Shown: piece by piece, positions 9,354 to 35,943 of the stretch
Layout: each line of letters starts with the position of its first letter
Numbering within the stretch: position 1 is the first letter of the stretch
Assembly (NCBI GenBank): GCA_018606725.1
Contig: JAGYID010000021.1
Coordinates: forward strand, 1 to 35,943
Source of the DNA: Acidobacteriota bacterium
GTDB taxonomy: Bacteria; Acidobacteriota; Polarisedimenticolia; Gp22-AA2
Length of the DNA: 35,943 nt
Direction: 5' to 3'
Program-made: the position numbers and the translations under genes
Notes under the pieces: generated by a model
Databases searched by the model: none
What the model was told of the DNA's origin: nothing
Seen by the model: only the letters and a program-made list of their open reading frames with translations

Positions 9354-9370
9354 GATCACCCCTCCTTGAA

Positions 9371-9484
9371 TTACTTCTTGAACTGCTTGTTGATGACCAC
9401 GACGAGCAGGATCACGACCACGACAACGACCACAGTCCAAAGCCACATACTGCCGCCCATCCATCCGTCCATTTGGTTCATCAT
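9371..9484 (-). CDS. 37-aa single-span membrane peptide
   Basis: Too short for the ORF track. It reads MMNQMDGWMGGSMWLWTVVVV, continues as a valine/leucine-rich span and ends INKQFKK before TAA at 9371-9373. One membrane helix of about 17-18 residues is flanked by a Met/Gly/Trp-rich N-terminus and a Lys-rich C-terminus, predicting N-out/C-in insertion. An AAGGA site precedes the tandem ATG ATG; the second ATG (9481) is an alternative. The strong ribosome site and co-direction with the YHS gene 17 bases downstream support that it is real. No family is recognised. The Met-rich N-terminus could bind copper, but this is speculation. Confidence 0.7.
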   Translation of the reverse strand: MMNQMDGWMGGSMWLWTVVVVVVVILLVVVINKQFKK

Positions 9485-9507
9485 GGAAATCCTTACGGTG
9501 ACGCTGC

Positions 9508-9526
9508 GGCCGGTCCACCACCGGCC
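9508..9526 (-). terminator. GC hairpin, possible terminator or processing site
   Basis: GGCCGGT and ACCGGCC form a perfect 7-bp stem around a 5-base loop (ccacc). It lies between the lipoprotein stop and the 37-aa peptide gene. No T-run follows on either strand, so it is not a classical intrinsic terminator. Confidence 0.3.
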
Positions 9527-9545
9527 AATTCAGCGCGAGAGAGGC

Positions 9546-9563
9546 CCGGTCTTGAGGGACCGG
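9546..9563 (-). terminator. GC hairpin just downstream of lipoprotein stop
   Basis: CCGGTC and GACCGG form a 6-bp stem with a 6-base loop, six bases beyond the lipoprotein stop on the minus strand. Together with the hairpin at 9508-9526 it may separate the lipoprotein transcript from the YHS unit. There is no U-tract. Confidence 0.3.
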
Positions 9564-9569
9564 ACGCGG

Positions 9570-10136: not shown

Positions 10137-10159
10137 GCGTATCTCCCTCTTTTTGTTGA

Positions 10160-15299: not shown

Positions 15300-15307
15300 G
15301 GGCGGGA

Positions 15308-19127: not shown

Positions 19128-19176
19128 GGTGCGAAAAATCCGGGAGCCGATCCGGGTATTCGGCCGGGGCGTGCGT

Positions 19177-20709: not shown

Positions 20710-20744
20710 GTCATTCACCTCTTTCGATGGCGTTCTGAACGGAT

Positions 20745-20966
20745 CTATTGACCTTTCGGGCGTACGAACAGCAGCACCGCGCCGGCCACGACGGCGCCGG
20801 CGCCCATCCAGACGGGGACGTTGAACGTCTCCTTGTCCTTGACCGACAGCTCCAGCTTGCCCAGCTTGAGATCGTGGGATTCCTTCGTGTAGCTGAAACC
20901 GCCATAGACCAGCCCGAAAATGCCGGCCACGATCAACACGATTGCCAGAATCCTGAGTGCGCTCAT
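20745..20966 (-). CDS. 73-aa two-span membrane protein of unknown function
   Basis: Starts at the ATG at 20966, preceded by an AGGAG that overlaps the stop codon of the upstream lmo0937-like gene (TAGGAG). The longer track frame is not supported. One N-terminal membrane helix (MSALRILAIVLIVAGIFGLVYGG) is followed by a charged stretch (SYTKESHDLKLGKLELSVKDKE), then a second helix (VPVWMGAGAVVAGAVLLFV) ending RPKGQ. Such small proteins occur next to stress-related lmo0937/CsbD-type genes in many GC-rich bacteria. The role is unknown; stress or envelope-related by context. It lies 35 bases before the M48 protease. Confidence 0.8.
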   Translation of the reverse strand: MSALRILAIVLIVAGIFGLVYGGFSYTKESHDLKLGKLELSVKDKETFNVPVWMGAGAVVAGAVLLFVRPKGQ

Positions 20967-20977
20967 GTCACGTTCTC

Positions 20978-21127
20978 CTAGGCGACGCGTCGGCCGCGAA
21001 TGAGGCGGAGCAGCAGTATCACGACGGCGAGGACGAGGAGGACGTGGATGAATCCCCCCATCGTGTACGACGAAACCAACCCGAGCAGCCACAGGATGAC
21101 AAAGAGAACGATCAAGGTCTCGAGCAT
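20978..21127 (-). CDS. lmo0937-family 49-aa membrane microprotein
   Basis: Missed by the ORF track. It reads MLETLIVLFVILWLLGLVSS and continues YTMGGFIHVLLVLAVVILLL with an RLIRGRRVA tail. This matches the lmo0937 (DUF5670) pattern: an N-terminal hydrophobic helix with a WLLG turn, the conserved G-G-x-I/L-H-x-LLVLAVVxLLLRLIxGR second helix and a basic end. The ribosome site AAAGGAGG lies 6 bases upstream of the ATG at 21127. The function is unknown, but the family is often stress-inducible and co-occurs with other small membrane proteins. It lies 11 bases before the 73-aa membrane gene, forming a compact island with it and the M48 protease. Confidence 0.88.
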   Translation of the reverse strand: MLETLIVLFVILWLLGLVSSYTMGGFIHVLLVLAVVILLLRLIRGRRVA

Positions 21128-21157
21128 GTGCGTGCCTCCTTTACAGGGTGACGGGGT

Positions 21158-22378
21158 TCACTGAAGATTCAGGTCGAGAATCTGCCGGGCGGCATAATCG
21201 ACCTGGTTGAATCCGATGTCCTGATGGATCGGGATCTCCAGGACGTGGTCGCGCAGGTATCTCGCGTCCGGCCCTTCCTGGGGGGCGGCCTCGGGGTCGC
21301 CATGATTCCAGAACTGCACCGCCTCGATGCCGCGCGCCCACAGGGCGGCGGCGGCCGTCTCTTTGTCGTTCACCAGGATCGGGAAGAACAGCGGGCACAC
21401 GCCCGGTTCCAGATCGTCGCGAAGCATGGTGACGCTGCCCTGGAGCCGGTCGCGCAGCCTCAGGAAATTCGCCCGGCGGCGCGCCCGGATCCCCTCGTAG
21501 TCAAAGTGCTTCAGGAGATGCCGGGACAGGCCCGAGATCCGCGTGTTGACGTCGGCGAGGCTGAAGCCGATGTCGCCCACGGTGACCCGCTTCGCCGGCA
21601 GGACGCGCAGCGCCCGGCCGACCCCGCCTTTGGCGGCGGAGAGCGCTCCGCCCACTGTCGCCCAGCGCCCGCGGATCCTCCGCACCACGAGCTCGGCGGT
21701 CTGGCCCCCGACCGAGGCCATGCCGCAGCCCTCCCATTCGAGCCGGTCGAGACCGCGCAGCGGCCCGGCGTTCTGGAGCAGCAGGCCGCCGTTGGGAACG
21801 GGGAGCGTCTTGTACAGGCAGAAGATGGCGAAATCGCCGAACGCGCCGAGCGGCCGTCCCTCCGTCCCGCTCAGGAGCGCCAGCGCGCAGTCTTCGATCA
21901 GGAGCATGCCGCGCTCCCGGCACAGCGCCACGAGCTCCCGCATCGGCTGGGGCCAGCCGAGGTAATGGATCACGAAGAGAGCACGCGCGCCCGAGCGGCT
22001 CAGCTTGTCCAGCTGCTCCAGATCCGGCTCCAGCCGGCGATTGATCCGGTAGAAGCGAAGCTGGGCGCCGGAAGCGCGCATCGCTCCCACCTCGTTGCCG
22101 CTGTGGTAATCGGGGGCGAGGATGGTATCTCGAGGACCGAAGCCGAGGGCCCGGAACAGATGGTAGATGCCGTGGCGCGCCCGATAGAAGTAGGTCCCGT
22201 CCGGGACGCCGAACGGGAAGGGCGTCTCCTTCCGGCTGAGCTGTCTCGCCAGCACCTCGAACCCCAGCCCCTGCCATGCCGGCACACAGACGCGCCGTCC
22301 CCGCGGTGCCGGGCCCCGACCCGGAGCGGGCCGCGGCGGGGCCTGCGTCTGCGAGGCCTGCATCATGTCAGCGCTCAT
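21158..22378 (-). CDS. DegT/DnrJ/EryC1/StrS-family aminotransferase
   Basis: 406 residues from the ATG at 22378, overlapping the upstream FemAB-like gene by 11 bases. Other starts (TTG 22387, ATG 22366) cannot be excluded because none has a clear ribosome site. The PLP-dependent fold is shown by APDYHSGNEVGAMRASGAQLRFYRI, FVIHYLGWPQPM, a cofactor-binding LLIEDCALAL, and FCLYKTLPVPNGGLLLQ, where the Lys is the predicted Schiff-base residue. The C-terminal part GFSLADVNTRIS and FPILVNDKE also match sugar aminotransferases. Family members convert a keto-sugar nucleotide into an amino sugar (for example perosamine or bacillosamine pathways). Some family members instead act as dehydratases, but with the Lys present an aminotransferase is more likely. 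It fits with a glycan containing modified amino sugars. Confidence 0.88.
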   Translation of the reverse strand: MSADMMQASQTQAPPRPAPGRGPAPRGRRVCVPAWQGLGFEVLARQLSRKETPFPFGVPDGTYFYRARHGIYHLFRALGFGPRDTILAPDYHSGNEVGAMRASGAQLRFYRINRRLEPDLEQLDKLSRSGARALFVIHYLGWPQPMRELVALCRERGMLLIEDCALALLSGTEGRPLGAFGDFAIFCLYKTLPVPNGGLLLQNAGPLRGLDRLEWEGCGMASVGGQTAELVVRRIRGRWATVGGALSAAKGGVGRALRVLPAKRVTVGDIGFSLADVNTRISGLSRHLLKHFDYEGIRARRRANFLRLRDRLQGSVTMLRDDLEPGVCPLFFPILVNDKETAAAALWARGIEAVQFWNHGDPEAAPQEGPDARYLRDHVLEIPIHQDIGFNQVDYAARQILDLNLQ

Positions 22379-23639
22379 GAGTTTCAAGGATCGCCTGTCG
22401 TTCCGTCTCCGGAGGCCCGCCGGGTCGGGGGGGGCGCGGCTGGCGGCCGCGCGCGATCCAGGTCGCCGCCAGCGTCCGGGCGGCGTCGCGCGCGACGACG
22501 AGGGCGCGGTGCCGCCTGAGGCGCGGGGCGATCCGAAACTTTGCGAAGCGCAGCAGCCGCATGCGCGGGGAATCCGGCATCACATAGAGCCACTCCTGGG
22601 GCCGTGTCCGGGTGGCCCAGTCGAACTTCCATGCATCTTCCTGGCCCAGAAAATCGAATTCCTTCGCGCCCCGATCGAAATGGTCCTGAAGGATGCGGAC
22701 CAGCAGCTGGCTGTAAGGGGAGCAGGTTGCAAATTCCGGGTCGTAGGCCGGCTTCAACAAGTACGCCTTGTCGGCATAGAAGAGAGAGAAGTCGAACGCA
22801 ATCCTCCGGCCGCCGACCCGCAGAAAGTGCAGGCGCAACCAGCCGCGCTGCGCCGCCCGCCGCGCCAGCAGCGAATAGAAGCGATGCGTCGCCTCATCGT
22901 CGGCGATGGCCGTGCCGGCCCGTCCCTTCCAGCCGGCGGCCTCGATCCGCAGCCCTTCTTCGAGCGCCTCCACGACGTCCTGCCCGGAGCCGACGACCTC
23001 CATCCGGACGTCCCCGGACTGCTGCAGTCGCCTCCCCCGGCGGCGGAGGTTGGCGCGGAGCTTGGGGGACAGATGATTGAAGTACGCCTCCCAGCCTCCC
23101 TCGATCGGGATGTAGGGCGCCTCCGCCGATCGCCACATCCCCGTGAGGTAACCGTCCTCCTGCGCCAGGGAGGTGAACATCGTGAGGGTCGGCGAGCCTG
23201 CCGGCAGGTGGCTGAGGACCAGGACGTCCCAGAGCGCCTTCTGCCGCATCAGGGCCTTCCAGATCGCCCGGTACGCCTCGGGGCGCCGGTGCTTTGAGAT
23301 AACGTCGAAGCGCTGGGTATGGACGTTGCCGATGATTTCCAGCCGGCGCACCCGCAACCCGTAGAGCCGTCCTTCGCCCCGCATCAGCGGGACGATGGCG
23401 ATCGGTCGTTGTCCATCCCTCACCACAAGGATGTGAAGCTCGTGGCCGGCGCCGAAGCACTCCCACCAGGTCCGCACCCACTCGTGGCTCAGGAACGGAT
23501 GGTCCACCCCCGCCTCCTCGAGCAGCGTGTTCCAGGCCGGCTGCAATTCGAGCAGCCCCTGCGCATCGGCGATCGTGTCGACCCGGAGCGCTGGCTCGGC
23601 CGTCGGCCGAGGCTCGGGCGCGACCTGGGCCAGGCGCAT
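22368..23639 (-). CDS. FemAB/BioF2-like GNAT acyltransferase (copy 2)
   Basis: 423 residues from the ATG at 23639; a TTG at 23648 overlaps the upstream stop and is an alternative, and no clear ribosome site favours either. The N-terminal WNTLLEEAGVDHPFLSHEWVRTWWECFGAGHELHIL parallels copy 1. The GNAT lobe has LRLHFLRVGGRRIAFDFSLFYADKAYLLKPAYDPEFATCSPYSQLLVRIL and ends KEFDFLGQEDAWKFDWATRTRP. The two copies share the family layout but differ clearly in sequence, so they are likely ancient paralogues with distinct acceptors. CelD/BioF2 proteins are typical companions of exosortase and Wzy-type EPS clusters. It probably acylates a sugar amine in the cytoplasm before export; substrates are unknown. 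Confidence 0.85.
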   Translation of the reverse strand: MRLAQVAPEPRPTAEPALRVDTIADAQGLLELQPAWNTLLEEAGVDHPFLSHEWVRTWWECFGAGHELHILVVRDGQRPIAIVPLMRGEGRLYGLRVRRLEIIGNVHTQRFDVISKHRRPEAYRAIWKALMRQKALWDVLVLSHLPAGSPTLTMFTSLAQEDGYLTGMWRSAEAPYIPIEGGWEAYFNHLSPKLRANLRRRGRRLQQSGDVRMEVVGSGQDVVEALEEGLRIEAAGWKGRAGTAIADDEATHRFYSLLARRAAQRGWLRLHFLRVGGRRIAFDFSLFYADKAYLLKPAYDPEFATCSPYSQLLVRILQDHFDRGAKEFDFLGQEDAWKFDWATRTRPQEWLYVMPDSPRMRLLRFAKFRIAPRLRRHRALVVARDAARTLAATWIARGRQPRPPRPGGPPETERQAILETHER

Positions 23640-23644
23640 GGTGC

Positions 23645-24889
23645 TCAAGACGGCGCCCGCTGGCGGGAAGGAACCCGCGTATCCCTGCGGCGACGGGCCG
23701 ACACAGCAGGCTGAGGAGAGAGGTTCATGGGCGCCCCGGACAAAATGTCCTCGTCCATGGTCGGGCTTCTTTCTCCCCGGAGGAGCGCCCGGTAGAGGCC
23801 CTCGGTCTGGCGCACCATGTGATCCATCGAGAAGCCGTTGACCATCCGCGCCCGGGCCGCCTGGCCCAGTCGCTGCGCCAGTGCCGGATTCTCCAGGAGG
23901 CGTCCGATGGCGACGGCCAGCGCCGGCGCGTCACCCGGCGACACCAGGAGTCCGGTGACGCCGTCGTCGAGAATCTCGGGCGTTCCGCCGACGCGCGTCG
24001 CCACGACCGGCACGCCGGCCGCCATCGATTCGAGCACGACGTTGGACAGCCCCTCGCTCAGCGACGGGGCGACCGAGACGGCCGCCTGCGAGAGGATCGC
24101 CGCGACATCCAGTTTCGTCCCGGTGAAGGCGACCCGTTCCGCAAGCCCGAGCTGGCGCGCCTGTTCCTCGAGCTCCCTCCGGCTGCCCCCGTCTCCCACG
24201 ATCACGAAGCGCGCCTCCGGGAACCGACCTGCCAGGATCGCCATCGCCTTCAGGTAGTCGTCGATGCCTTTCATCGGGTTCAGCCGGGACACCGCCACCA
24301 CCAGGGGAGCGCGCGGCGGCAGGCCCAGGGCCGACCGCAGCGTCTCGTCGGGCGGCCGGGGCGCGAACCGGTCGACATCCACGCCGTTCCGGATCACGGC
24401 GATCGCGCGGCGCGCGTACCCCTCCGACCTGAGCTGCGCCCGGACGGCGGCGGCGTTCACCAGAATGCAGTGGGCCAGCCGGCTGGCGTACTTCTGGACC
24501 AGTCTCTGCGCGCGAGTCCAGGGGTCGCCGCTGTCGCGGATGGACGCCAGAACGACCCGCGAGCCGGCGAGCCGGGCGACCGGCACCGCGAACACGATGG
24601 GGTAGAAGCCGTAGGCATGAACGATGTCGATGGCTTCGCGTTTCAGATAGGCCACGAACCGCCACTGCTGCCGGAGGGTCCCCGGACGCAGGAACCCCTT
24701 GATCGGGTAGGAGGTCAGGGGGAGCCCGCACGATGCCATCTCGCCGTACAGCGGCCCTGCCTGCTGCAGGCAGGCGACGTGAACGTCGAAGCGGGAGGGA
24801 TCCAGGCGCGTGGCAAGGTGGGCCATCTGCCCCTCGGTGCCCCCGACATGGAATCCAGTGATGAACTGGAGAACCCTAATCCGCGACAG
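23645..24889 (-). CDS. GT4 family glycosyltransferase with probable CTG start
   Basis: The frame runs to 25153 in the track, but its upstream part is a shadow of the Wzy-like gene. Conserved sequence begins SRIRVLQFITGFHVGGTEGQM, which contains the GT4 glycine loop (FHVGGTEGQ). The first in-frame ATG comes after this loop. A CTG at 24889 lies 6 bases after a perfect GGGAGG, giving 414 residues, and is my choice; a TTG at 24910 lacks a ribosome site. The C-domain is typical: AVSRLNPMKGIDDYLKAM, FVIVGDGGSRRELEEQARQLGLAERVAFTGT, SVAPSLSEGLSNVVLESMAAGVPVVATRVGG. The SEGLSNVVLESMAAG loop is the sugar-nucleotide binding E-x7-E motif. It resembles PEP-CTERM/EPS-locus glycosyltransferases. Likely cytoplasmic. 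Confidence 0.88.
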   Translation of the reverse strand: MSRIRVLQFITGFHVGGTEGQMAHLATRLDPSRFDVHVACLQQAGPLYGEMASCGLPLTSYPIKGFLRPGTLRQQWRFVAYLKREAIDIVHAYGFYPIVFAVPVARLAGSRVVLASIRDSGDPWTRAQRLVQKYASRLAHCILVNAAAVRAQLRSEGYARRAIAVIRNGVDVDRFAPRPPDETLRSALGLPPRAPLVVAVSRLNPMKGIDDYLKAMAILAGRFPEARFVIVGDGGSRRELEEQARQLGLAERVAFTGTKLDVAAILSQAAVSVAPSLSEGLSNVVLESMAAGVPVVATRVGGTPEILDDGVTGLLVSPGDAPALAVAIGRLLENPALAQRLGQAARARMVNGFSMDHMVRQTEGLYRALLRGERSPTMDEDILSGAPMNLSPQPAVSARRRRDTRVPSRQRAPS

Positions 24890-26264
24890 GGTGCACCTCC
24901 CTTGTTGCAAGCGTTCCGAGGGCCAGCGCGAGTCCGGCGATGATGTAGAAGTAGAAGTGGTACCCGACCGGATGGAACATCCCGGACACCGCGAAGGCGG
25001 CGAGGCTGACCTCCACGGCCACGCCGTAGTGGTAAAGGTTCGCCGCCCCCGGCACCCCCGCCGCGGCGCGCTGCGTCCCGCGCGCGCGTCTGACGCAGGA
25101 CCAGAATAGCGCCAGGAACAGGGCCAGCCCGGGAAGCCCGAGGTCGGCGGCATATTCCAGGTAGACGTTGTGCACTTCCTTCCAGAGCGGACCGCGCGCT
25201 TCGTTGAGCGCCAGGATGTTCATCCCCGCGCCGACGCCGAAGAACGGGTGCTTGAGAGCCAGGCCGGTGGCCGCCACCATGCCGCCCCAGCGTGCCTGGG
25301 ACGAGCCGCTCTGGTCGGAGCGCATGTCGGTGATCGTTCCCATGCGACCGAGATACGACCCGGGTAGAAGCGGCAGGGCCACCAGCGCGAGGAGGACCAC
25401 GGCGATCGCCCAGTGGCGCTGCGTGCTCCTGGAGAGCTTCCAGAGATACAGGGCGAGCATCGCCATCAGCGCCAGGAACCCGGCCCGCGAAAAAGTCAGG
25501 ACGACGGCCGTCGCGACCAGGACGATCACGCCCAGCAGGACCGCCCGCGTGACCGCGCCGCGGGCCCGGATCAGGTGCGCCACCGAGAACGGCAGGAGAA
25601 GGTTGAGCGTCAGGGCGAGGTCGTTGGGATTCTGGGTGAGCGGCGCGTTGTAACCGACGATCCTGCCGAAGCCCACGTCATTCCCGCCGGGCGCGATCTC
25701 ACCCGACGCAAAGTGCACGAGCGCGACCGCGGCCAGCGGAACGCTGGCGATCACCAGGGTCAGGGTCACGACCCGGAAGCGGGCCGGCGTGCTGACGATG
25801 TTCGCGATCAGCCAGAAAATCGCCAGCGCCTTGATGAACAGGTTCAGCAGCAGGGAGATGCTCCCACCCGGCCAGTACGAAAAAGGCACGCCGAGAGCGG
25901 CCCAGGCCGCCAGGCATGCGGCGAGGATGATCTCGGGCGTCACGATGGAGATCGGCCGGTGCGCGAGGAAGCGGTCCAGCGTGTGCGCGCCGATGCCGCC
26001 GACCGCGGCCAGCAGCGCCAGGCGGAAGGGAGCCAGGACCGGGAACAGCGCCTGCGGCGCGAGCAGCAGGATGAGGATGAATCCCAGAAGCGCGACGAAG
26101 GGCGCGGTCCCGCCGCTCGTCTCGCCCGCGTCGGTCGACGCGGCGCTCCGCACCCTGACCCGTGCGCCCGGTGGCGGGGCGGGTCGCCACCACTCCGCAC
26201 CGGGCCGGGAAACGCCGGTCGGGGCAGTGCCGAAGGAGGTCGCTTCTCCGTTCATCCGGATCAT
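24876..26264 (-). CDS. O-antigen ligase/Wzy-like polymerase membrane protein
   Basis: 462 residues from the ATG at 26264, overlapping the methyltransferase stop (ATGA). A Pro/Arg-rich cytoplasmic N-terminus of about 55 residues precedes about 10-12 membrane segments. The long periplasmic loop contains RWGGMVAATGLALKHPFFGVGAGMN, then HNVYLEYAADLGLPGLALFLALF. This matches the O-antigen ligase/Wzy_C family signature, in which an H-N-x-Y/F-L-x-x-x-x-x-x-G-x-x-G-L segment is conserved. The TFSRAGFLALMAMLALYLW phrase is also characteristic. The role is polymerising repeat units (Wzy) or ligating glycan (WaaL-like); the EPS context with Wzx and GumC favours Wzy. The operon partner downstream is the CTG-start GT4. 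Confidence 0.9.
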   Translation of the reverse strand: MIRMNGEATSFGTAPTGVSRPGAEWWRPAPPPGARVRVRSAASTDAGETSGGTAPFVALLGFILILLLAPQALFPVLAPFRLALLAAVGGIGAHTLDRFLAHRPISIVTPEIILAACLAAWAALGVPFSYWPGGSISLLLNLFIKALAIFWLIANIVSTPARFRVVTLTLVIASVPLAAVALVHFASGEIAPGGNDVGFGRIVGYNAPLTQNPNDLALTLNLLLPFSVAHLIRARGAVTRAVLLGVIVLVATAVVLTFSRAGFLALMAMLALYLWKLSRSTQRHWAIAVVLLALVALPLLPGSYLGRMGTITDMRSDQSGSSQARWGGMVAATGLALKHPFFGVGAGMNILALNEARGPLWKEVHNVYLEYAADLGLPGLALFLALFWSCVRRARGTQRAAAGVPGAANLYHYGVAVEVSLAAFAVSGMFHPVGYHFYFYIIAGLALALGTLATREVHPVAD

Positions 26265-27223
26265 CGAGCCGGCGCGGGAGCCGAGGTCCCGGCCCTGACC
26301 CCGCGCATGCGGATCGGCTCCTTCGCGATCTCGATGTCGACACAGCCGTTCTCGCGGAACCACTCGAAGACCTCCGGGTGCGAGAGCTTCCACTGGTACT
26401 TCGGCGTGTACCAGTCGAAGGTGTCGAGCCAGCGGGTGCGCCAGTCAGGGTGCAGAGAGATCGGGCCGACGAACATCAGCACCTTGCCGAGCAGCGGGAG
26501 GCGGTACGGGTAATACAGCGGCACGGCCACGGTCGACAGCGCCCGCACCACGCGGAGCGGCAGCCGGGTCGTGACCTTGCGGATCAGGTCGGGGCCGTAG
26601 CGGCCCGGCCCGGGATTCCGATAGAGATACACCGCCAGGCTCCCGCCCGGCTTCACGCTGGCCGCGACGCGCGCGAACGCGGCGCGCGGGTCGGGAGTGT
26701 GGTGCAGGACGCCGATCGAGTAGGCCCGATCGAACGTTCCCTCGCGGAACGGCATGGCGAAGATGTCCGCCTGGGCCAGGTGGACCCCGGCGCGCTCGCC
26801 GATATTTTCGTAGGCGGCGTCCACCGCTTCGGTGAGATCGATGCCGAAGACCTCCCCGCCCGCCGTCGCGACGATCTCGGCGTACCTGCCGGCGCCGACG
26901 CCCGCGTCCAGCACCCGGCTGCCGCGCAGGTCCTCGGCGGTCCACCCGGTCGTCGCCCGGAAGCTCCGGTCGGACTCGTCGCGCCCGTTGAGCGAGTCGA
27001 GCTGGACGCTCCGGAAGTGTCTCCACTGGTAGGCGAAGGACCCGGCGTAGCCGCCGGCGGAGACGAACCTCGGAACGCCCCGCCGGACGGGATAGGCGGC
27101 GGAGCAGCCGCGACACTCGAGATGGCCTTCCAGGACCTCGTCACCGCGGTACGTTGCCTCGCGCAATTCGAGACCGCCCTTGCAGGCGGGGCAGACCAGG
27201 ACCTTCAAGGCCGACGGCTTCAT
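26261..27223 (-). CDS. Class I SAM-dependent methyltransferase with N-terminal zinc-ribbon-like Trm112 segment
   Basis: 320 residues from the ATG at 27223, overlapping the phosphotransferase stop. The N-terminus SALKVLVCPACKGGLELRE and HLECRGCSAAYPVRRGVPRFV form a four-Cys Trm112p-like zinc ribbon. A class I methyltransferase core follows: SRVLDAGVGAGRYAEIVA (SAM motif I), GIDLTEAVDAAYENI (motif II), FDRAYSIGVLHHTPDPRAAF and VKPGGSLAVYLY. Such fusions are common in EPS and O-antigen loci, where methylation of a sugar or lipid-linked unit is assumed. Alternatives (ubiquinone-like or protein methylation) are less likely because of its neighbours. No membrane span is seen, so it is likely cytoplasmic. 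Confidence 0.88.
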   Translation of the reverse strand: MKPSALKVLVCPACKGGLELREATYRGDEVLEGHLECRGCSAAYPVRRGVPRFVSAGGYAGSFAYQWRHFRSVQLDSLNGRDESDRSFRATTGWTAEDLRGSRVLDAGVGAGRYAEIVATAGGEVFGIDLTEAVDAAYENIGERAGVHLAQADIFAMPFREGTFDRAYSIGVLHHTPDPRAAFARVAASVKPGGSLAVYLYRNPGPGRYGPDLIRKVTTRLPLRVVRALSTVAVPLYYPYRLPLLGKVLMFVGPISLHPDWRTRWLDTFDWYTPKYQWKLSHPEVFEWFRENGCVDIEIAKEPIRMRGVRAGTSAPAPAR

Positions 27224-28380
27224 GCCGCCCGGACCCCGCTCGTCCGGGGAGACGCGGTGCTCCTTGCGGCCACCTTCCTCTCGGGACGAAGACCCAGCAG
27301 CAGGACGCGTGCCGTGCGGGCAAGAATGCGCAGGTCGAGCCACAGCGACCGGTGCTTGATGTAATAGAGGTCGTAACGCATCTTCTCCGATTCTTCCTGG
27401 AGGGTGTTGGCGTAACGGTAGCGGACCTGCGCCCAGCCGGTGACGCCCGGACGTATCAAGGCGCGCAGGGAGTAGAACGGGATGCGGGCGCTGAACAGCT
27501 CGAAGTTGGAGACCGGATGCGGCCGGGGGCCGACCAGGTTCATGTCGCCCCGGAGGACATTGATGAGCTGCGGCAGCTCATCCAGATGGGACCAACGGAG
27601 GAAGCGGCCGGCGCGCGTGATTCGGGCCGTGTTGTCACGGACCCACGACGACCCGTTCTGTCCCTCGGCATGCATGCTGCGGAACTTCAGCAGCCCGAAC
27701 TTCCGCCCACCCCGCCCCACGCGCTCCTGCCTGAAGACCGCCGGCCCGGGCGAATCGAGGCGGATCGCGAGGGCGATCAGGGGCCACAGCGGGGCCGTCA
27801 CGGCGATTCCGATCGCCGACAGGACGAGGCTCATGCCCCGTCCCACGACCCCGGCGATGCGCCGCCGCTGGAACCCTCCGGAGAAAATGAGCGCGCTCGG
27901 GGTGAGCGCGTCGATGGCCAGCCGCCTGGTCAGGCGCTCGTAGAACTCCACGCCCTCCTCCACCGCCACCCCCCGCACGCGCGATTCCAGCAGCGGTCCG
28001 ACCGGCAGCCGCCCGCGGCGCTCGTCGAGCGCGACGACGATCCGATGCGGACGCACCTTCCCGACGATGAGGTCCAGATCCTCGAGCGAACCCAGGACCG
28101 GATAGGGCGGCGCCGGCTCGAGGGAGCGCACGTCGGGGATGACCCCGACGATCGTCCAGCGCGAGCCGCGGGCCTCCATCTCCTGGATCAACTCGCGGGC
28201 GAGACTCCCGGAACCCAGGATGAGAACGCGCTCGCCCGCGCCAGGAGTCCGCACCACCCCGCCTGCGGCGGAGGACCGGGTTCTCAGAGTCCGGGAGGCG
28301 AACAGCCCCATCCCGATGACGGCGGTGCACGCCGCCCACAGGGCGAAATTCGACTCGATGACAGTCCACAGGAAATACAT
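27220..28380 (-). CDS. Polyprenyl-phosphate glycosylphosphotransferase (priming enzyme), short N-terminal form
   Basis: 386 residues from the ATG at 28380. One N-terminal helix (VIESNFALWAACTAVIGMGLFA) precedes a Rossmann-like CoA-binding-type domain from about residue 49 (ERVLILGSGSLAREL). The membrane re-entrant helix (RGMSLVLSAIGIAVTAPLWPLIALAI, 181-206) leads into the catalytic PGT core: ERVGRGGRKFGLLKFRSMHAEG, the DE pair in SHLDELPQ (Asp267-Glu268), LRGDMNLVGPRPHP and YSLRALIRPGVTGWAQVRYRYAN. The enzyme moves a sugar-phosphate from UDP-sugar to undecaprenyl phosphate to start the repeat unit. WbaP/EpsB-type members usually have 4-5 N-terminal helices and about 450-480 residues. Here the upstream gene's stop lies in frame 51 bases away, so the protein cannot be longer. 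No clear Shine-Dalgarno sequence precedes the ATG. Confidence 0.9.
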   Translation of the reverse strand: MYFLWTVIESNFALWAACTAVIGMGLFASRTLRTRSSAAGGVVRTPGAGERVLILGSGSLARELIQEMEARGSRWTIVGVIPDVRSLEPAPPYPVLGSLEDLDLIVGKVRPHRIVVALDERRGRLPVGPLLESRVRGVAVEEGVEFYERLTRRLAIDALTPSALIFSGGFQRRRIAGVVGRGMSLVLSAIGIAVTAPLWPLIALAIRLDSPGPAVFRQERVGRGGRKFGLLKFRSMHAEGQNGSSWVRDNTARITRAGRFLRWSHLDELPQLINVLRGDMNLVGPRPHPVSNFELFSARIPFYSLRALIRPGVTGWAQVRYRYANTLQEESEKMRYDLYYIKHRSLWLDLRILARTARVLLLGLRPERKVAARSTASPRTSGVRAA

Positions 28381-28431
28381 GGCCGATGGTTTCCGATCGC
28401 TAAGGTGGTGAAGCGCGGCCGCGGTCGCTCT

Positions 28432-29214
28432 TCAGCGCGCCGGGGGCGCGCCGTAACCGCGGTAATACGCGTAGGGCCCCGGCCGCGGCGGATCGACGCA
28501 GTTGAACACCAGCCCGGCGACCTTGCCCGGATCGAGGGCGTTCAGCGCCTCCTCCAGGAACTTGCGCGGCGTCCGGTGTGCGGCCACGACCAGGAGAAGA
28601 CTGTCCACCCAGCGCGCGATGACCCGGCAGTCGGGCACCGGCAGTACCGGCGGCGTGTCGACGATGATGTAGTCGTACGCCCGGCGCGCCTGCTGGAGAA
28701 GATCACCCAGGCGCGGCGACCGGAGGGCTTCGTAGGGGGCGGCGAGATGGCGGCCGGCGGTCATGAGCGACAGGCTGAAGGGCGGGCGGCGGAACACCAC
28801 CGCCTCAATGGGAAGATTCGCGTCGGAGATCGCATCGGCCAGGCCCGGCTGCCCGGTATCGCGAATCCCGAGCTGCGCGGCCACATCCGGCAGGCGCAGG
28901 TCGGCGTCCACCAGCAGCACCCGCGTTCCCTTCGACTGCGCCAGGGTGCCCGCGAGATTGATGGCGGTGGTGGTCTTCCCTTCGCCGGCCCCCGGGCTGG
29001 TCACGGCGATCACGCCGCGCCCGCCGTTGGGACGCGTCTCCTCGAGGCGGTGCCTCAGGACCCTGTACTTGTTGGCCTCGAACGACTCGGACGCGAGGAG
29101 GCTGACGAGCTGTTCGCCGGGGTCGTCCGCGATCGTCCTGACCGGCGCCAGGGTCGTTTCTCTCGCCGGCTCCCGGCGCTCGTTCTGATCGAAGATGTTG
29201 AGAATCGATTCCAT
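28432..29214 (-). CDS. CpsD-type bacterial tyrosine kinase (stand-alone)
   Basis: 260 residues from the ATG at 29214, whose first base is shared with the upstream stop (TGATG). Walker A is SPGAGEGKTTT (residues 73-83), A' is VLLVDADLRLP (99-109) and Walker B is YIIVDTPPVLP (182-192), all typical of BY-kinases (Wzc C-terminal half, CpsD, CapB). The extreme C-terminus GPYAYYRGYGAPPAR is a Tyr cluster (Tyr248, 250, 251, 254), the usual autophosphorylation tail. As a separate CpsD it needs a membrane partner, here the GumC/Wzz protein encoded directly upstream. This pair controls chain length and export of the EPS. The N-terminal NIFDQNERREP portion may contact GumC. Confidence 0.92.
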   Translation of the reverse strand: MESILNIFDQNERREPARETTLAPVRTIADDPGEQLVSLLASESFEANKYRVLRHRLEETRPNGGRGVIAVTSPGAGEGKTTTAINLAGTLAQSKGTRVLLVDADLRLPDVAAQLGIRDTGQPGLADAISDANLPIEAVVFRRPPFSLSLMTAGRHLAAPYEALRSPRLGDLLQQARRAYDYIIVDTPPVLPVPDCRVIARWVDSLLLVVAAHRTPRKFLEEALNALDPGKVAGLVFNCVDPPRPGPYAYYRGYGAPPAR

Positions 29215-30587
29215 CAGGCGCGCCCCCCGACGATCATGAGGACCAACGATCCGCCCCAGCGCGCGACGAAGTAGGAAACCCCGACGACCAGCGGGAGACC
29301 CAGCGCCGCCAGGGACGCACCCAGTAAGAGACGGTTCCTGCGTTGCCGCTTCCCCGTCGTCGTGGCGATACGCGGGATACTCGCCAGGACCGGCACCCGC
29401 GTGAACTCGCGCAGATCGTCCACCGCGTGGAACGAGGTGTCGAGGCGCTCCGCCAGGGCGATGGTCCCGAGCGCCAATCCGACCGCGATCACCAGGCCGA
29501 CGAGCAGGATACGGAAGCGGCTGGGCGATGCCGGCTCGTCCGGCACGACCGCCGGATCCAGGATCGCGAACTGAACGCCCTGCTGCCCCTGCTCCATGCT
29601 TTCGTTGAGCCTCGCCTCCTCGTACCACTTCATCAAGGACAGGTATCGGTCCTTCGCCGTCGCGTAGTCGCTCGACATGAGGCCGGCGTTTGCCTGGGCC
29701 AGGCTCTCCCTGAGTTGCCGGGCCGCCTCGCTGTTTGCGGGTCCGGCACCGGCGTCCGGCGTGGCGCCGGCGTCCGGCGCGGCGCCGGCGAGTTGCGACT
29801 CGATCGCCTGGATTTCACTCCGCGTCTGGACGATCTCGGGATGGTTGTCATGGTAGCGCGAGCGCAGCTCGGTCAGGTCCTGCCTGAGCTTCGCCAGGCG
29901 CGTGACGTCGGGCGCCTTGGGGCCGCTGGCGGGCACCATCGAAGTCAGCTGCTTGATCAGGCCGTCGCGGCGTCCGGCGAGGCGTGCCTGCTCCGCGCTG
30001 CTCTGGTCCAGGCGCGCTTTCGCCTCGTCGAGCTGCACTTTCAGGAATTTGGCCGAAGACGTGGCCTGGTGCTCGCGGCTCTTGAGGTTGTCCTCGACGT
30101 AGCTGGTCGCGAGCGTGTTGGCGACCTCGGCGGCGGTCCGCGGGTCATCGCTCCAGTAGCTCAGGGCGAAGGCGACGGTCGTGCCATGCCCGCTGATCGG
30201 GTCGACGCCCTTCGCCTCCAGGAGGATGTCCCGGCGCATCTGCTCGATGATCGCCTCCGTGGAGGCCCCTTTCGTCCTCTGTCCGCTGTACAGATTGAAC
30301 CGCTGAATCACGCCCCCGAGCCGGGCGCGGCTCATGAGTTTCTCGCGGATGGTCTGCAGGCGCGTCTCCAGCTCGTCGGCTCCGCCGGGTCGCAGCAGGG
30401 AGTCCGTCACGTCCGGGCGCTCGACGAGGACCGTGGCGGTGCCGCGGTACAGGTCGGGAAGAAAGGCCGCCACACTGGCCGCGGCCAGGACGATGGCCGC
30501 GAACGTCGACAGGGCCAGCCACTTCCGCCGGCGCCAGACGGCCATGAAAGCATCCGCCCCGCCTCGGTGTCGTGTCGCCTCGGGCAT
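29214..30587 (-). CDS. GumC/Wzc-type chain-length determinant protein
   Basis: 457 residues from the ATG at 30587, which has GAGGG 6 bases upstream; the ATG at 30593 directly abuts that site and is less likely. The N-terminal Wzz domain starts after RRRKWLALSTFAAIVLAAASVAAFL (membrane helix 1) with YRGTATVLVERP. A long periplasmic coiled coil occupies about 150-330 (LKVQLDEAKARLDQSSAEQARLAGRR). The PASPSRFRILLVGLVIAVGLALGTIAL segment (Pro-rich C-terminal helix) follows, then a cytoplasmic tail and a further C-terminal hydrophobic segment. There is no kinase domain, consistent with the separate CpsD downstream. A Pro/Asp/Ala/Gly tandem (PDAGATPDAGAG) interrupts the coiled region. It is the co-polymerase scaffold spanning the periplasm towards an outer-membrane exporter, which is not found in this window. 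Confidence 0.92.
   Translation of the reverse strand: MPEATRHRGGADAFMAVWRRRKWLALSTFAAIVLAAASVAAFLPDLYRGTATVLVERPDVTDSLLRPGGADELETRLQTIREKLMSRARLGGVIQRFNLYSGQRTKGASTEAIIEQMRRDILLEAKGVDPISGHGTTVAFALSYWSDDPRTAAEVANTLATSYVEDNLKSREHQATSSAKFLKVQLDEAKARLDQSSAEQARLAGRRDGLIKQLTSMVPASGPKAPDVTRLAKLRQDLTELRSRYHDNHPEIVQTRSEIQAIESQLAGAAPDAGATPDAGAGPANSEAARQLRESLAQANAGLMSSDYATAKDRYLSLMKWYEEARLNESMEQGQQGVQFAILDPAVVPDEPASPSRFRILLVGLVIAVGLALGTIALAERLDTSFHAVDDLREFTRVPVLASIPRIATTTGKRQRRNRLLLGASLAALGLPLVVGVSYFVARWGGSLVLMIVGGRA
29747..29787 (-). repeat. Short tandem repeat in the GumC-like gene
   Basis: The unit caccggcgtccggcgtgg is followed by cgccggcgtccggcgcgg and then a partial third (cgccggcg), encoding PDAGATPDAGAG. 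Two 18-base units differ at two positions. It lies in the periplasmic coiled region and keeps the frame, so copy-number change would alter loop length only. Confidence 0.6.
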
Positions 30588-30596
30588 GGTCATCCC

Positions 30597-31196
30597 TCAG
30601 AGGGCCGTCAGGGACATCGGTGCCGCCGCGATCCGCGGAGCGCCCGCGCCGGTCTCCCGCCAGGATGCCGGCACCGGCTCGACCGCGGTGCAGTCCACTT
30701 CCACGGCCACGCTGCGCTGCAGCAGATTCACCGACAGCACCAGCAGGCCCTGGTTCATCTTGAGCTGCACCAGAATCCCTTCGAGTCCGGCGAGGGCCCC
30801 GCGCGTGATGCGGACGCGCCAGCCCTCTCTCAGATACGGATGCGCCACGGCCGGAACCTTGGCCCCCACCAGCCGGCGGATGGCCTCGATCTCGGAGTCG
30901 GGGAGCAACGCCGGCCGGTCCCAGCGTTCTCCCAGGATCGCCACCAGCCCACGCGCCTTGCGCACCTCGATGTAGCTCTCCTTGTCCAGGGCATGGCGCA
31001 GGAACAGGTAGCCGGGGAACAGCGGCGTGCCGGTGAGACACCGCGTCCCGGCACGCCTTGCCCACGCCTCGAACTTCGGCAGAAACAGCTCGAACTGCTT
31101 GCCCGCGAGCTGGTCGTACACCAACTGCTCGCAGTGACTGCGCGTCCACAGGACATGCCAGCGGGCGCCCGCGTCAGGTGTCAAAGTTTCAAGCAT
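30597..31196 (-). CDS. NusG-family (UpxY/RfaH-like) transcription antiterminator
   Basis: 199 residues from the ATG at 31196. The N-terminal NGN domain is RWHVLWTRSHCEQLVYDQLAGKQFELFLPKFEAWARR, then PLFPGYLFLRHALDKESYIEVRKARGLVAIL, the F-P-G-Y-L/V-F phrase being diagnostic of NusG paralogues. A KOW-type domain follows: PYLREGWRVRITRGALAGLEGILVQLKMNQGLLVLSVNLLQRSVAVEVD. It is 20-30 residues longer than RfaH, with an acid/Ala tail. Specialised NusG proteins (UpxY, LoaP, RfaH) are recruited to long operons for surface polysaccharide and suppress termination within them. Being the second gene of a roughly 29-kb locus, it likely acts on its own transcript. It follows the propeller gene by four bases; there is no strong ribosome site, so translation may be coupled. 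Confidence 0.9.
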   Translation of the reverse strand: MLETLTPDAGARWHVLWTRSHCEQLVYDQLAGKQFELFLPKFEAWARRAGTRCLTGTPLFPGYLFLRHALDKESYIEVRKARGLVAILGERWDRPALLPDSEIEAIRRLVGAKVPAVAHPYLREGWRVRITRGALAGLEGILVQLKMNQGLLVLSVNLLQRSVAVEVDCTAVEPVPASWRETGAGAPRIAAAPMSLTAL

Positions 31197-31200
31197 GGCT

Positions 31201-32523
31201 CTACTTGTGCGCCTGCTGGTTGCCGTAGGTCAGGAGGTTGGAGACCTGCAGCACCAGGTTACCGGCGGGATCGGTGATGGCGATCGTCGCCCGGTCCTTC
31301 TTCCCCGGCTCGCCGGCGTCGGTGAAGGTGAACTCGATGGTCACGCCATCCTCGCCGTTGTATCGCCCGCTGCCGATCGCATGGTAGGTGTCGAACGACG
31401 CGGCTGGCGGGGGAGGCTTGATCGTCGGGTCGTCGCTGCACTCAGCGAACGTCAGGCTCTCGAGGTGGAACTGGTTCCCCAGCCAGTTCACCTCGAGGTT
31501 GTTCGGGTGCTGGCTGACGTCGCAGTGCAGCTCGAAGCCGTGCGTCACCCGCATGCCGCTCGTCGTGAAGATGCTCCCGCCGCCGGTCATGCGGCCGCGG
31601 GCGGTCACCGCCGTGGGCGGCTTCTTCACCACCACGCCCTTGACGGTGAAGTAGGGTGTCCCGGTATTGAAGCTGTTGAGGATGGCGCCGGTCGCCAAAT
31701 CAATCTTGTAGATGTTGGACGAACCGTAATTGGCCAGCCAGAAGGCGCCGTCTCCCGTCAGGTCCAGGCTGAGCCAGAGATCCGGCTGACCGGGGATATC
31801 GTAGGTCTGCACGACCCCGCCGCCGGAATCCAGCCGGACGACGACCGAGTTGTCCGCCACCAGGAAGCCGCCGTCCGGCATGGCCTTGACCGCGAAGGCG
31901 ACGTCGGGGAGCGTCGCGAAGTCGGGAAGCTGCGCGCCGGCGCAGACGTTGAAGCGCTTCACATGGGTGCCGGACGACGTGTAGAAGACCGTGCAGCCGT
32001 CCGGGGCAAGGTCGATCCAGATGGTGCCGCGGGTCTCCACGGCCGCGTGGTAAGAGGCGATCTTGGCCCCCGCGGTGTTGATCGCCAGGATGTCACCCGT
32101 ACAATCGGCCTGGCCGACGTAGCAGGTTCCGCCGGCGTTGAACGAAATCGAGGTCGGGTTGCAGTTGTAGCCTCTTCCAAACGCCCCCATCGAGGCGCCC
32201 ATCGTGTTGAAACGTTCCACGGAGTTCCCGGTCAGGCAGGTGGGGTCCGCGCAGTGATGCGTGACGTAGAGGTTCATGGCGGCGTCGAACGCCATCCCTT
32301 CGGCCTTGCCCGGGACGACGCCTTTGAGCGTCTTGACGAAGGTTCCGTCCGAGCGCCACCACTGAACTTCACCCGATTGCAGGGAGACGAACACGTCGCC
32401 GGCCTGGAACTTGCCGCCACTCGACGCGGCCATGCTGTCCCGGCCGAGAAGGGCAACAAGAATGACGCCAAGCAGAAGACTCAACCGCCGCCCTGCAACC
32501 AGCATTCTCGATGTGCCTGTCAT
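31201..32523 (-). CDS. Secreted beta-propeller protein with C-terminal post-COAP-like domain
   Basis: 440 residues from the ATG at 32523. The signal peptide is MLVAGRRLSLLLGVILVALLGRDSMAASS. A propeller of NHL/SMP-30-like repeats covers about 40-300: GDVFVSLQSGEVQWWRSDGTFVKTL, GMAFDAAMNLYVTHH, FAVKAMPDGGFLVADNSVVVRLD, LSLDLTGDGAFWLANYGSSNIYKIDL. From about residue 315 a beta domain begins RGRMTGGGSIFTTSGMRVTHGFELHCD and ends LTYGNQQAHK. This resembles the TGGG...GNIQIH module often seen C-terminally in secreted actinobacterial and acidobacterial proteins. It opens the minus-strand EPS transcript and is directly followed by the antiterminator, an unusual place for a secreted protein. The function may be surface binding; no catalytic residues are recognised. 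A 9-base C-run (poly-G on the coding strand) lies just before the start. Confidence 0.85.
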   Translation of the reverse strand: MTGTSRMLVAGRRLSLLLGVILVALLGRDSMAASSGGKFQAGDVFVSLQSGEVQWWRSDGTFVKTLKGVVPGKAEGMAFDAAMNLYVTHHCADPTCLTGNSVERFNTMGASMGAFGRGYNCNPTSISFNAGGTCYVGQADCTGDILAINTAGAKIASYHAAVETRGTIWIDLAPDGCTVFYTSSGTHVKRFNVCAGAQLPDFATLPDVAFAVKAMPDGGFLVADNSVVVRLDSGGGVVQTYDIPGQPDLWLSLDLTGDGAFWLANYGSSNIYKIDLATGAILNSFNTGTPYFTVKGVVVKKPPTAVTARGRMTGGGSIFTTSGMRVTHGFELHCDVSQHPNNLEVNWLGNQFHLESLTFAECSDDPTIKPPPPAASFDTYHAIGSGRYNGEDGVTIEFTFTDAGEPGKKDRATIAITDPAGNLVLQVSNLLTYGNQQAHK

Positions 32524-32749: not shown

Positions 32750-32778
32750 GTTTTACCGCGGTGAGCAAGAAGGGACAA
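32750..32778 (-). promoter_or_regulatory. Candidate sigma-70 promoter for the EPS locus
   Basis: On the minus strand TTGTCC (-35, 4 of 6) and TAAAAC (-10, 4 of 6) are separated by exactly 17 bases. Operator copy 2 sits about 43 bases upstream of the -35 box. The match is moderate, and such sites arise by chance in GC-rich DNA only occasionally. Confidence 0.35.
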
Positions 32779-32820
32779 TTCGGCAGCCCCTGAATACGCG
32801 GCGCTTGATTTCCGACACGA

Positions 32821-32839
32821 TGTCAGGAGCGTCCTGACA
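32821..32839. promoter_or_regulatory. Inverted-repeat operator, copy 2 (TGTCAGG-N5-CCTGACA)
   Basis: TGTCAGG agcgt CCTGACA is a perfect 7+7 palindrome with the same spacer length as copy 1 at 376-394. The arms extend to ACGN-TGTCAGG with one mismatch. It lies 297 bases upstream of the propeller start (32523) on one side and 89 bases upstream of the CheB-CheR start (32929) on the other. No good sigma-54 promoter is found on either side, so it may act on a sigma-70 promoter or at a distance. Confidence 0.55.
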
Positions 32840-32928: not shown

Positions 32929-35900
32929 ATGGCGAGAAAGCCGTACAGGAAACGAGCCCGCGGGGCCGTCCGAAAATCCCCCACACGCCCCGCAGCCGGG
33001 TCAGGGAGGCGCCGCGTGGCGGCGAACCGTCGGCTCGATTGCGCCGTCGTCGGGGTCGGGGCGTCCGCAGGCGGTCTGGAGGCGTTCTCGGCCGTCCTGG
33101 AGAGCCTGCCGGCCGATACCGGGATGTCCTTCGTGTTCGTCTCGCACCTGGATCCGAAGCACGAGAGCATCCTGACCTCGCTCCTCGCCCGGACGACCTC
33201 CATGCCGGTCCTGGAGGCCAGGCACGGGATGGTCCTCGAACCGGATCATATCTACGTGATTCCGCGTAACGCGAGAATGACCATCGACAAGTGCGCCTTG
33301 TCGCTGTCGCGCCGTCTCCAGGCGCCGGCGGAAAACCTGCCGATCGATCATTTCTTGGAGTCGCTGGCGCGGGATCGGAAGCACAGGGCGATCGGGGTGA
33401 TCCTCTCCGGAACGGCTTCGGACGGGACGAAGGGCCTGAGGGCGATCAAGAGCGAGGGGGGCATCACCCTCGCGCAGGATCCCGGCACGGCCAAGTACGA
33501 CGGCATGCCCCGCAGTGCGATCAAGGCGAAGGTCGCGGATTTCGTCCTGCCGCCGGGGGAGATCGCTGCCATGCTGGCAAAGATCGCCCGGAGTCCGGGG
33601 TCGATCGCCGGCGCCGCCACGCTGCCGAAGGCTCCGGAGCAAGCGGAAGGAGGGTTGGCGGAAGTCTTCGCCCTCCTGCTCGAGAGAACCGGGGCCGATT
33701 TCTCCACCTACAAGGAGGCCACCGTTCGGCGCCGCCTCCACCGCCGCATGACTCTCACCAAGCTGCGGGATGTCGCGGACTACGCCCGCCTTCTGCGCCA
33801 GGAGCCGTCCGAAGTGGATGCACTGTACGAGGACCTCCTGATCAAAGTCACCGAGTTCTTCCGGGACCCGAAGACCTTCGAGAAGCTGAGGACCGCGATC
33901 CTCCCCTCCATGATCAAGAAGAAGCCGCCGAAAGAGCCGTTCCGGGTGTGGGTGCCCGGCTGCTCCACCGGTGAGGAGGCGTACTCGATCGCCATGCTCC
34001 TCTTCGAGGTCATGGGCCGCCTGCGCGTCCATACCCCGATTCAAATATTCGCGACCGACCTGAGCGAGAGGGCCATCGCCACGGCCCGCAAGGGGATCTA
34101 CCCGGGGAGCATCGTCGGCTCAGTGTCGCCCGCGCGCCGGCGGCGGTTCTTCGTAAGATTGGGTCAGGAGTACAAGATCGTCCAACGTCTCCGGGAGGCC
34201 TGTGTGTTTGCCAGGCAGGACATCACCCAAGATCCGCCCTTCTCCAATGTCGATCTGGTGAGCTGCCGCAATGTCCTGATCTACATGGGGAAGAGCCTGC
34301 AGGACACGATCCTGCCGATCTTTCATTACGCCCTCAAGTCGGATGGCTGTCTTCTTCTGGGAAAGGCCGAGACGCTCGACAGCTTTGCCGATCTGTTCAC
34401 CCCGATGGATATGAGGCACCGGATTTACAGGAGGAAATCGATCCCCGCCATGCAGGCGACTGGATTCCCTGTCCGCCCTGCGAGACCTGTCCCGGAACCT
34501 CCGGCCCGGGCGGCCGGCAGGGAACAGCCTGCCGCCCGGACCGAGGTGAGCGCACGGGAGGAGGCGAACCGGCTGATCATGGAGAGGTACGCTCCCGCGG
34601 GCGTCGTGATCAACCAGAAGATGGACATCGTCGAGATCCTGGGAGACACCCACCCCTATGTGCGGCTGGCGTCCGGAACGGCCGACCTCAGCCTCCTCCG
34701 GCTGGTCAGGCGCGACCTCGTCACGCAGTTGTCCGCCGCGGTGGATCTGGCCAGGAGGACGGGCGCTCCCGTCCGGAAGGAGGGGCTGCCGGTCAAGCGT
34801 GGCCACGATGGGCACAGGGGGCCCACTCTCGAGGTCATTCCCCTGACAGCCGGTTCCGATCAGGACCGTCGCCTGCTGATCCTTTTCGAAACAGCCGTGC
34901 CTCCGTCCGCCGAAGCGCAAGACGCGAGCCGGGCGGCGGGTGTGAAGGCTGAGGCACGAGAGGGCGGAAACGGACGCGACCTGGTCCGGCTGAGAAACGA
35001 GCTGGCCGACAGCCAGGAACACTTGAGGTTGCTGATGGACGGCCGGCAGACGGCCGAAGAGGAGCTCAAGTCGGCGAACGAGGAGCTCATGTCGAGCATG
35101 GAGGAGCTGCAGAGCGCCAATGAAGAGCTGCAGACCTCGCATGAAGAGCTCGAGTCGACCAACGAAGAACTGACGACGGTCAACGACCAGCTGGCGATTC
35201 GGAATCGGGACTTGACGGAGGTCAGCAACGATCTCACCAACCTGGTCACGAGCGTCAATGTGCCGATCGTGATGCTGACGGGCGATCTGCGGTTGCGCCG
35301 ATCCACCGTCGCCGCGGACCAGGTGATGGGCCTGACGCCCGCGGATATCGGGCGGCACATCTCCGAGATCCGGCACACCCTCAGGCTGCCCAACCTGGAG
35401 GAGCAAGCCGCCGAGGTACTCAAGACCCTGGGGGCCAAGCAAATCGAAGTTCAGGATCGGTCAGACGTCTGGTACTCGATGCGCCTGCGCCCTTACCGGA
35501 CCGAGGACGACCGGATCGACGGGCTCGTCGTGGTGCTGTTCGAGATCGACCGCCTGAAGCGCAGCTTCCAGGAGGTGGAGCGCGCCAGGAATTTCAGCAG
35601 GGCGGTCGTGGAAGTCGTGCAGGAGCCTTTGCTGGTTCTGGGTGGAGACCGGCGCGTCCAGATGGCGAACCACGCATTCCTCAAGACGTTCCACATGTCG
35701 CGCGCGGCGCTGGAGAATCGGCTCGTCTACGAGCTGGAACCAGGCGGGTTTCACTCCGCGGCATTCAAGAGCATGTTGGAGGAAACGATCGCGGGCCGGG
35801 CGCGGACCAGCGACTTCGAGCTCGAGTTCGACATCGGCGGCCCGTCGCCCACGATCATGGCGATCGACGCCCGGCAGTTCGATCTGCACGAGGACACCGG

Positions 35901-35943
35901 GAAGATCGTTCTGCTCACCATGAAAGACATCACCAGGTTCAGG
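32929..35943 (+). CDS. CheB-CheR-PAS chemotaxis-type signalling protein (3' end outside window)
   Basis: Open from the ATG at 32929 through 1005 codons without a stop to the window end, so the ORF track omits it. AGGAG precedes the ATG by 9 bases. After a basic tail (MARKPYRKRARGAVRK) comes the CheB methylesterase domain: GVGASAGGLEAF (Ser), VSHLDPKHES (His), SGTASDGTKG (Asp). The CheR methyltransferase follows from about 241: TEFFRDPKTFE, VWVPGCSTGEEAYS, ATDLSERAIATARKGIY, DLVSCRNVLIYM. A PAS-like stretch comes next, then a long coiled coil (about 684-768) with repeated EELxSxNEEL units, then PAS domains (IVMLTGDLRLRRSTVAADQV; PLLVLGGDRRVQMANHAFLKTF). No receiver domain precedes CheB, typical of this hybrid class, which often ends in a histidine kinase; that part lies outside. 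It may sense conditions for matrix or surface behaviour. Confidence 0.93.
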   Translation, partial: MARKPYRKRARGAVRKSPTRPAAGSGRRRVAANRRLDCAVVGVGASAGGLEAFSAVLESLPADTGMSFVFVSHLDPKHESILTSLLARTTSMPVLEARHGMVLEPDHIYVIPRNARMTIDKCALSLSRRLQAPAENLPIDHFLESLARDRKHRAIGVILSGTASDGTKGLRAIKSEGGITLAQDPGTAKYDGMPRSAIKAKVADFVLPPGEIAAMLAKIARSPGSIAGAATLPKAPEQAEGGLAEVFALLLERTGADFSTYKEATVRRRLHRRMTLTKLRDVADYARLLRQEPSEVDALYEDLLIKVTEFFRDPKTFEKLRTAILPSMIKKKPPKEPFRVWVPGCSTGEEAYSIAMLLFEVMGRLRVHTPIQIFATDLSERAIATARKGIYPGSIVGSVSPARRRRFFVRLGQEYKIVQRLREACVFARQDITQDPPFSNVDLVSCRNVLIYMGKSLQDTILPIFHYALKSDGCLLLGKAETLDSFADLFTPMDMRHRIYRRKSIPAMQATGFPVRPARPVPEPPARAAGREQPAARTEVSAREEANRLIMERYAPAGVVINQKMDIVEILGDTHPYVRLASGTADLSLLRLVRRDLVTQLSAAVDLARRTGAPVRKEGLPVKRGHDGHRGPTLEVIPLTAGSDQDRRLLILFETAVPPSAEAQDASRAAGVKAEAREGGNGRDLVRLRNELADSQEHLRLLMDGRQTAEEELKSANEELMSSMEELQSANEELQTSHEELESTNEELTTVNDQLAIRNRDLTEVSNDLTNLVTSVNVPIVMLTGDLRLRRSTVAADQVMGLTPADIGRHISEIRHTLRLPNLEEQAAEVLKTLGAKQIEVQDRSDVWYSMRLRPYRTEDDRIDGLVVVLFEIDRLKRSFQEVERARNFSRAVVEVVQEPLLVLGGDRRVQMANHAFLKTFHMSRAALENRLVYELEPGGFHSAAFKSMLEETIAGRARTSDFELEFDIGGPSPTIMAIDARQFDLHEDTGKIVLLTMKDITRFR

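Follow-up and report, generated by a model that had tools for sequence, protein, structure and literature searches.

The DNA analysed here (hereafter the window) is contig C228, 35,943 nucleotides long, from the genome of an Acidobacteriota bacterium (G000). At its left end lies the 5′ end of a NarL/LuxR-type response regulator gene, RR1 (1..111, minus strand), the rest of which is found in contig C112 across a 99-bp overlap. The plus-strand gene at 684..3617 encodes a protein of secreted type that has Laminin_G_3 and fn3-like domains. It is followed by an EPS operon on the minus strand (3679..32523) that encodes, among others, a secreted protein, an RfaH/NusG-like protein, chain-length/tyrosine-kinase-like proteins, glycosyltransferases and two XrtA-type amidotransferases. 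Divergent from the operon, a CheB/CheR-type fusion gene (32929..35943, plus strand) runs off the window. The overlap joins window positions 1-99 to positions 8467-8565 of L071, and the CheB/CheR gene appears to run on from the right end of the window into C153 (start of L013); C112, C228 and C153 are probably neighbouring contigs.

Two copies of a 19-bp palindrome, TGTCAGG-N5-CCTGACA, had been predicted in the window, and a check of the sequence found both to be exact: TGTCAGGATGTCCCTGACA at 376-394 (site 1) and TGTCAGGAGCGTCCTGACA at 32821-32839 (site 2). Their predicted placement 290-300 bp upstream of start codons was also correct, the distances being 290 bp to the start at 684 and 298 bp to that at 32523. 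The chance expectation, given originally as about 1e-4 in 36 kb, came to 1.1e-4 per window, or 0.011 per genome, when recomputed from the base composition of the window.

Sites were counted genome-wide by pattern searches. The two copies in the window are the only exact ones in the 3,735,650-base genome, and 12 sites were found with up to two mismatches, of which nine fall on contigs C228, C153 and C196. Together with C112, these contigs correspond by homology to a single 98-kb contig of G003, a genome from another genus of the same family, and the homologous part amounts to about 96 kb. Since nine of the 12 sites fall within what is 2.6% of the genome (P about 1e-12; seven of 10, P about 1e-9, when the two window sites are left out), they were considered to form a regulon of this island. 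Permuted half-sites gave 0-3 island sites, versus nine for the motif. The inner core TCAGG-N5-CCTGA occurs nine times in the G000 genome versus once for the control, and its N6 counterpart, TCAGG-N6-CCTGA, does not occur there at all; in G003, a further 11 N5 matches lie outside the island contig. By rough gene calls, seven of the nine island sites are intergenic, most within ~300 bp of a gene start, and two overlap called genes. The same kind of site recurs before many genes of one roughly 95-kb EPS/stress island. Neither random scatter in coding DNA nor dispersal as a REP-like repeat, the two outcomes named beforehand as contrary to the original prediction, was seen in the genome search. The candidate regulon was supported, as one that is island-wide and larger than the two genes proposed. 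That the 684 gene and the EPS operon share one regulator was likewise supported, by the syntenic conservation of the sites in G003 and by the concentration of related sites on the island, mostly in intergenic DNA ahead of genes.

Site 2 is situated between the EPS operon, which starts at 32523 on the minus strand, and the CheB/CheR-type gene at 32929 on the plus strand. Its position upstream of the EPS operon had been recognised, but the divergent gene had been missed. It is syntenic in G003, where 18 of its 19 bases are kept. It had also been missed that the gene starting at 32523 (31201-32523) opens the EPS operon and is not a separate flanking gene. Because the G003 locus, syntenic in other respects, lacks this gene and has the RfaH/NusG-like gene directly after the EPS promoter, site 2 is assigned to the promoter of the operon and not to the 31201-32523 gene as such. 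Read on the minus strand, site 2 is the distal box of this promoter, and a degenerate 18-bp palindrome, ATTCAGGGGCTGCCGAAT (32778..32795), identical in G003, is the proximal one. A predicted −35 box TTGTCC (32773..32778; TTGTTC in G003) is separated by a 17-bp spacer from a predicted −10 box TAAAAC (32750..32755; identical in G003). Just upstream of the operon, a 99-bp block (32526-32624) is 90% identical in G003, although the length of the spacer between this block and the operator differs by ~94 bp. The block could act as a leader on which the RfaH/NusG-like system works; its predicted RNA folding is not unusual (z +1.45).

Site 1 had been correctly located upstream of the 684 gene, but its original description overlooked the divergent RR1 gene, which starts at 111 on the minus strand, so that the site lies between the two. 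In G003 all 19 bases are identical and lie inside a fully conserved block of ~30 bases; being orthologous, the G000 and G003 sites are non-independent. Three bp from site 1, an extra half-site TGTAAGG (366..372, minus strand; CCTTACA on the plus strand) is conserved in G003, and the resulting arrangement, CCTGACA-3bp-TGTMAGG, recurs upstream of a homologous response regulator gene in G008, a genome from another family. No recognisable −35 box adjoins site 1 on either strand. A consensus sigma-54 promoter, TGGCACATCACTTGCT (562..577, plus strand), is found 167 bp downstream of it. No c-di-GMP-I-GGC riboswitch was found upstream of the 684 gene in the window; orthologs of this gene in G001 and G004 have such riboswitches upstream (L047 2727-2807 and L048 1156-1235, respectively).

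Comparison of the island sites revealed a recurrent promoter layout. At several of them a second, weaker palindrome is located exactly 23 bp away, and in many cases a TTGNCC-like −35 box, followed 17 bp on by a −10 box, adjoins or shares bases with the proximal palindrome. One of the clearest examples on the island, TTGCCC-17-TATAAA, precedes a GGDEF-EAL gene whose G003 ortholog encodes PAS-GGDEF-EAL. Others are TTGCCG-17-TACAAG before a YtxH-like gene and TTGTGG-17-TAAGAA before an operon encoding an RsbT-like protein, a kinase and a second response regulator, RR2; the EPS operon promoter (32750-32839 on the minus strand; TTGTCC-17-TAAAAC) follows the same layout more loosely. When a composite promoter was defined as a palindrome plus TTG, 16-18 bp and a −10 box, eight were counted in the 96 kb of the G000 island and four in 78 kb of the G003 island, versus none in 191 kb and one in 108 kb elsewhere, the background being about 300 kb of other DNA that is not a random sample. 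Because island sites served to train the motif matrix, the tandem and composite counts carry some circularity; several composite matches lie outside the training set, including those of YtxH, BON and the RsbT-kinase-RR2 operon. For two composite matches of the G000 island, no gene was called downstream.

RR1 and RR2 both contain receiver (PF00072, Response_reg) and PF00196 (GerE) domains, and RR2 comes in G000 after an RsbT-like ATPase and a kinase with an RsbU_N domain. RR1 is 95% identical in G003. G008 encodes two RR1-like regulators (77 and 72%), and the motif precedes both genes, so that in G000, G003 and G008 the operator co-occurs with close relatives of RR1 and stands before their genes. 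RR1, encoded beside site 1, is the best candidate regulator: this genomic association points to a response regulator of the NarL/LuxR type, and on these comparative grounds the regulator of the regulon is probably RR1 or its paralog. NarL/FixJ/LuxR-type regulators activate from sites at −35, as RcsB does on capsule genes. The present system would resemble these in its receiver and GerE domains, in palindromes at or upstream of −35 and in its EPS and stress targets; it differs in its odd 7-5-7 sequence, in the frequent use of two boxes with a 23-bp period and in its concentration in one island. Known NarL-type operators are usually even palindromes, whereas TGTCAGG-N5-CCTGACA is odd.

The sites, how they are conserved and concentrated in the island, the layout of the promoters and the link to the response regulator clade are read directly from the sequence; from these we infer the identity of the binding protein, activation and not repression, phosphorylation and the signal. 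The 19-bp palindrome is likely to be the operator of an RR1 dimer that would activate island promoters at −35. Its exact form would be the high-affinity version, bound through the receiver-GerE protein, and many island promoters would carry one or two palindromes, the proximal one at a weak TTGNCC-like −35 box. As the proximal palindrome sits at −35 and the −10 box follows 17 bp on, phosphorylated RR1 would contact RNA polymerase and activate sigma-70 transcription. In the EPS operon promoter, the distal box would be the exact copy, centred near −87, and the degenerate copy would lie at −35. The operator at site 1 could serve the RR1 gene itself, the surface-protein gene at 684, or both; it may thus mediate RR1 autoregulation or modulation of the 684 promoter, or it may bind a sigma-54 activator. 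No NarL-type protein is known to activate sigma-54 directly.

Other proteins were considered as ligands of the palindrome. The 7-5-7 geometry resembles that of NtrC sites, and an NtrC-family sigma-54 activator could bind the motif; site 1 would then be the enhancer of the 562-577 promoter, and the protein would act on sigma-70 at the EPS promoter. In keeping with this, the −24/−12 promoter downstream of site 1 is perfect and the genome encodes 20 sigma-54 activator domains. The G003 promoter, TGGCACATC(A/G)CTTGCT, is ungapped and at the same distance from site 1 as in the window, with no indel in between, and on the other side of site 1 G003 shows large indels. However, when all nine consensus −24/−12 promoters were checked, the other eight lacked the motif upstream, so that a sigma-54 regulon was discarded, and no sigma-54 promoter was found close to 32821 or to most of the other island sites, many of which sit at sigma-70-like −35 boxes. 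No sigma-54 activator gene was identified on the G000 island, and comparison of G000 with G003 singled out no island-specific activator, the sets of other genomes being incomplete. The original suggestion of an NtrC-family regulator is not supported for the regulon as a whole, and this explanation is unlikely. Less probable still is binding by the Crp/Fnr-type regulator encoded on the island (C153 9070-9723), which would also control its own gene. Its distribution is attractive: within the family the crp gene is found only in G000 and G003, both times on the island, and a conserved copy of the motif, TCAGGAGGGTCCTGA, precedes it in both. Homologs nevertheless point to a different site, since several with the same recognition helix, GTTRSRVSFFMN, have TGTKCA-N4-TGMACA (16 bp, with Crp geometry) upstream; no exact TCAGG-N5-CCTGA was found at Crp homolog loci beyond G003, and the motif is present in G008 despite the lack of a crp homolog there. 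Crp/Fnr autoregulation was accordingly rejected. Across the phylum, TGTKCA-N4-TGMACA, found upstream of several of the Crp/Fnr homologs with this helix (L134-L163), is a likely operator of that family.

It is very improbable that the two exact copies are a coincidence or part of an RNA element, a terminator or a dispersed repeat. In G001, G004 and G006, TCAGG...CCTGA stems do occur inside actual or apparent c-di-GMP-I riboswitches that precede the orthologs of the 684 gene. Against this, Rfam gave no match at site 1 or site 2, and a riboswitch or RNA hairpin was rejected (one sub-threshold CRISPR-repeat match lay elsewhere in the second stretch), and the copies are limited to two exact ones in the genome, strongly conserved and placed in a promoter-specific manner. 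The palindromes are very probably true operators, and the regulon they would define has no description in the literature searched. No relevant published operator matching the N5 motif or its N6 form was found in that literature, and DigR from Myxococcus has a different palindrome.

The association of palindromes with response regulators extends to a wider clade. Response regulators encoded beside N5 palindromes (TCAGG-N5-CCTGA) share the helix KT[VI]ETHRMRLM, and the others are mostly of the KTAESHR type. In the wider, RsbR-linked clade with KTAESHR-type helices, the palindrome TCAGG-N6-CCTGA is found before the regulators' own operons, in many cases 100-240 bp ahead of an rsbR-like gene that itself lies a few kilobases before the response regulator gene. 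Such loci were found in Acidobacteriota, Rokubacteria, Methylomirabilota and others, and the exact N6 palindrome was present upstream of eight of 26 rsbR genes versus nine of 720 other genes. Helix type and spacing were associated with P about 5e-7 (Fisher's test), a value inflated by orthologous sites. At many KTAESHR-type loci no palindrome was seen, and a composite site beside a KTAESHR-type regulator in G101 runs counter to the rule. An N6 match at position 431 of L242 was discarded because its surroundings resemble a c-di-GMP riboswitch stem. A tentative reading, somewhat less than evenly probable, is that a widespread NarL-type response regulator lineage linked to RsbR and the stressosome recognises TCAGG half-sites, and that one acidobacterial branch of it changed the helix from KTAESHR to KT[VI]ETHRMRLM together with the spacing from N6 to N5 and runs a self-contained, probably horizontally shared regulon of an EPS/c-di-GMP/stress island. 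TCAGGT-N4-ACCTGA-like palindromes, mostly upstream of the rsbR-like gene, were noted at RsbR-kinase-NarL loci of several phyla (L214, L215, L218, L221, L227, L230, L231, L235 and L242).

Two described systems bear comparison with these loci. RsbRST stressosome modules with a two-component output are known from Vibrio vulnificus, where c-di-GMP turnover is the presumed output (PMC10014275). The wider clade similarly has RsbR-like STAS proteins beside a kinase and a response regulator, but here the output would be a NarL-type regulator that binds DNA and for which an operator is predicted, and no operator was found described for this stressosome-linked class in the literature searched. In the sigma-54-dependent PEP-CTERM element of PrsK/PrsR (Haft et al. 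2006, PMC1569441), motif 1 has 17 nt, ends in TTTACA and stands about 63 nt away from the sigma-54 box. Both that system and the window combine an EPS locus containing XrtA-type amidotransferases with a surface-protein gene that is preceded by a sigma-54 promoter. The window, in contrast, has a 19-bp palindrome at 167 bp, and the PEP-CTERM model gave no match to the 684 protein, so that an element of the PEP-CTERM/PrsR type was discarded. Should the proposed assignment be right, it would provide a predicted operator and promoter layout for the stressosome-linked class of response regulators, with targets undescribed in the literature searched. It would also place EPS synthesis, c-di-GMP turnover and stress proteins (YtxH, BON) under one regulator in uncultured Acidobacteriota, and it would offer a natural pair for studying the joint change of recognition helix and half-site spacing. 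The island contig that carries RR1 also contains a KaiC-domain gene (L071 57-2101) and a small gene that is KaiB-like by eye, and both are found in G003 as well.
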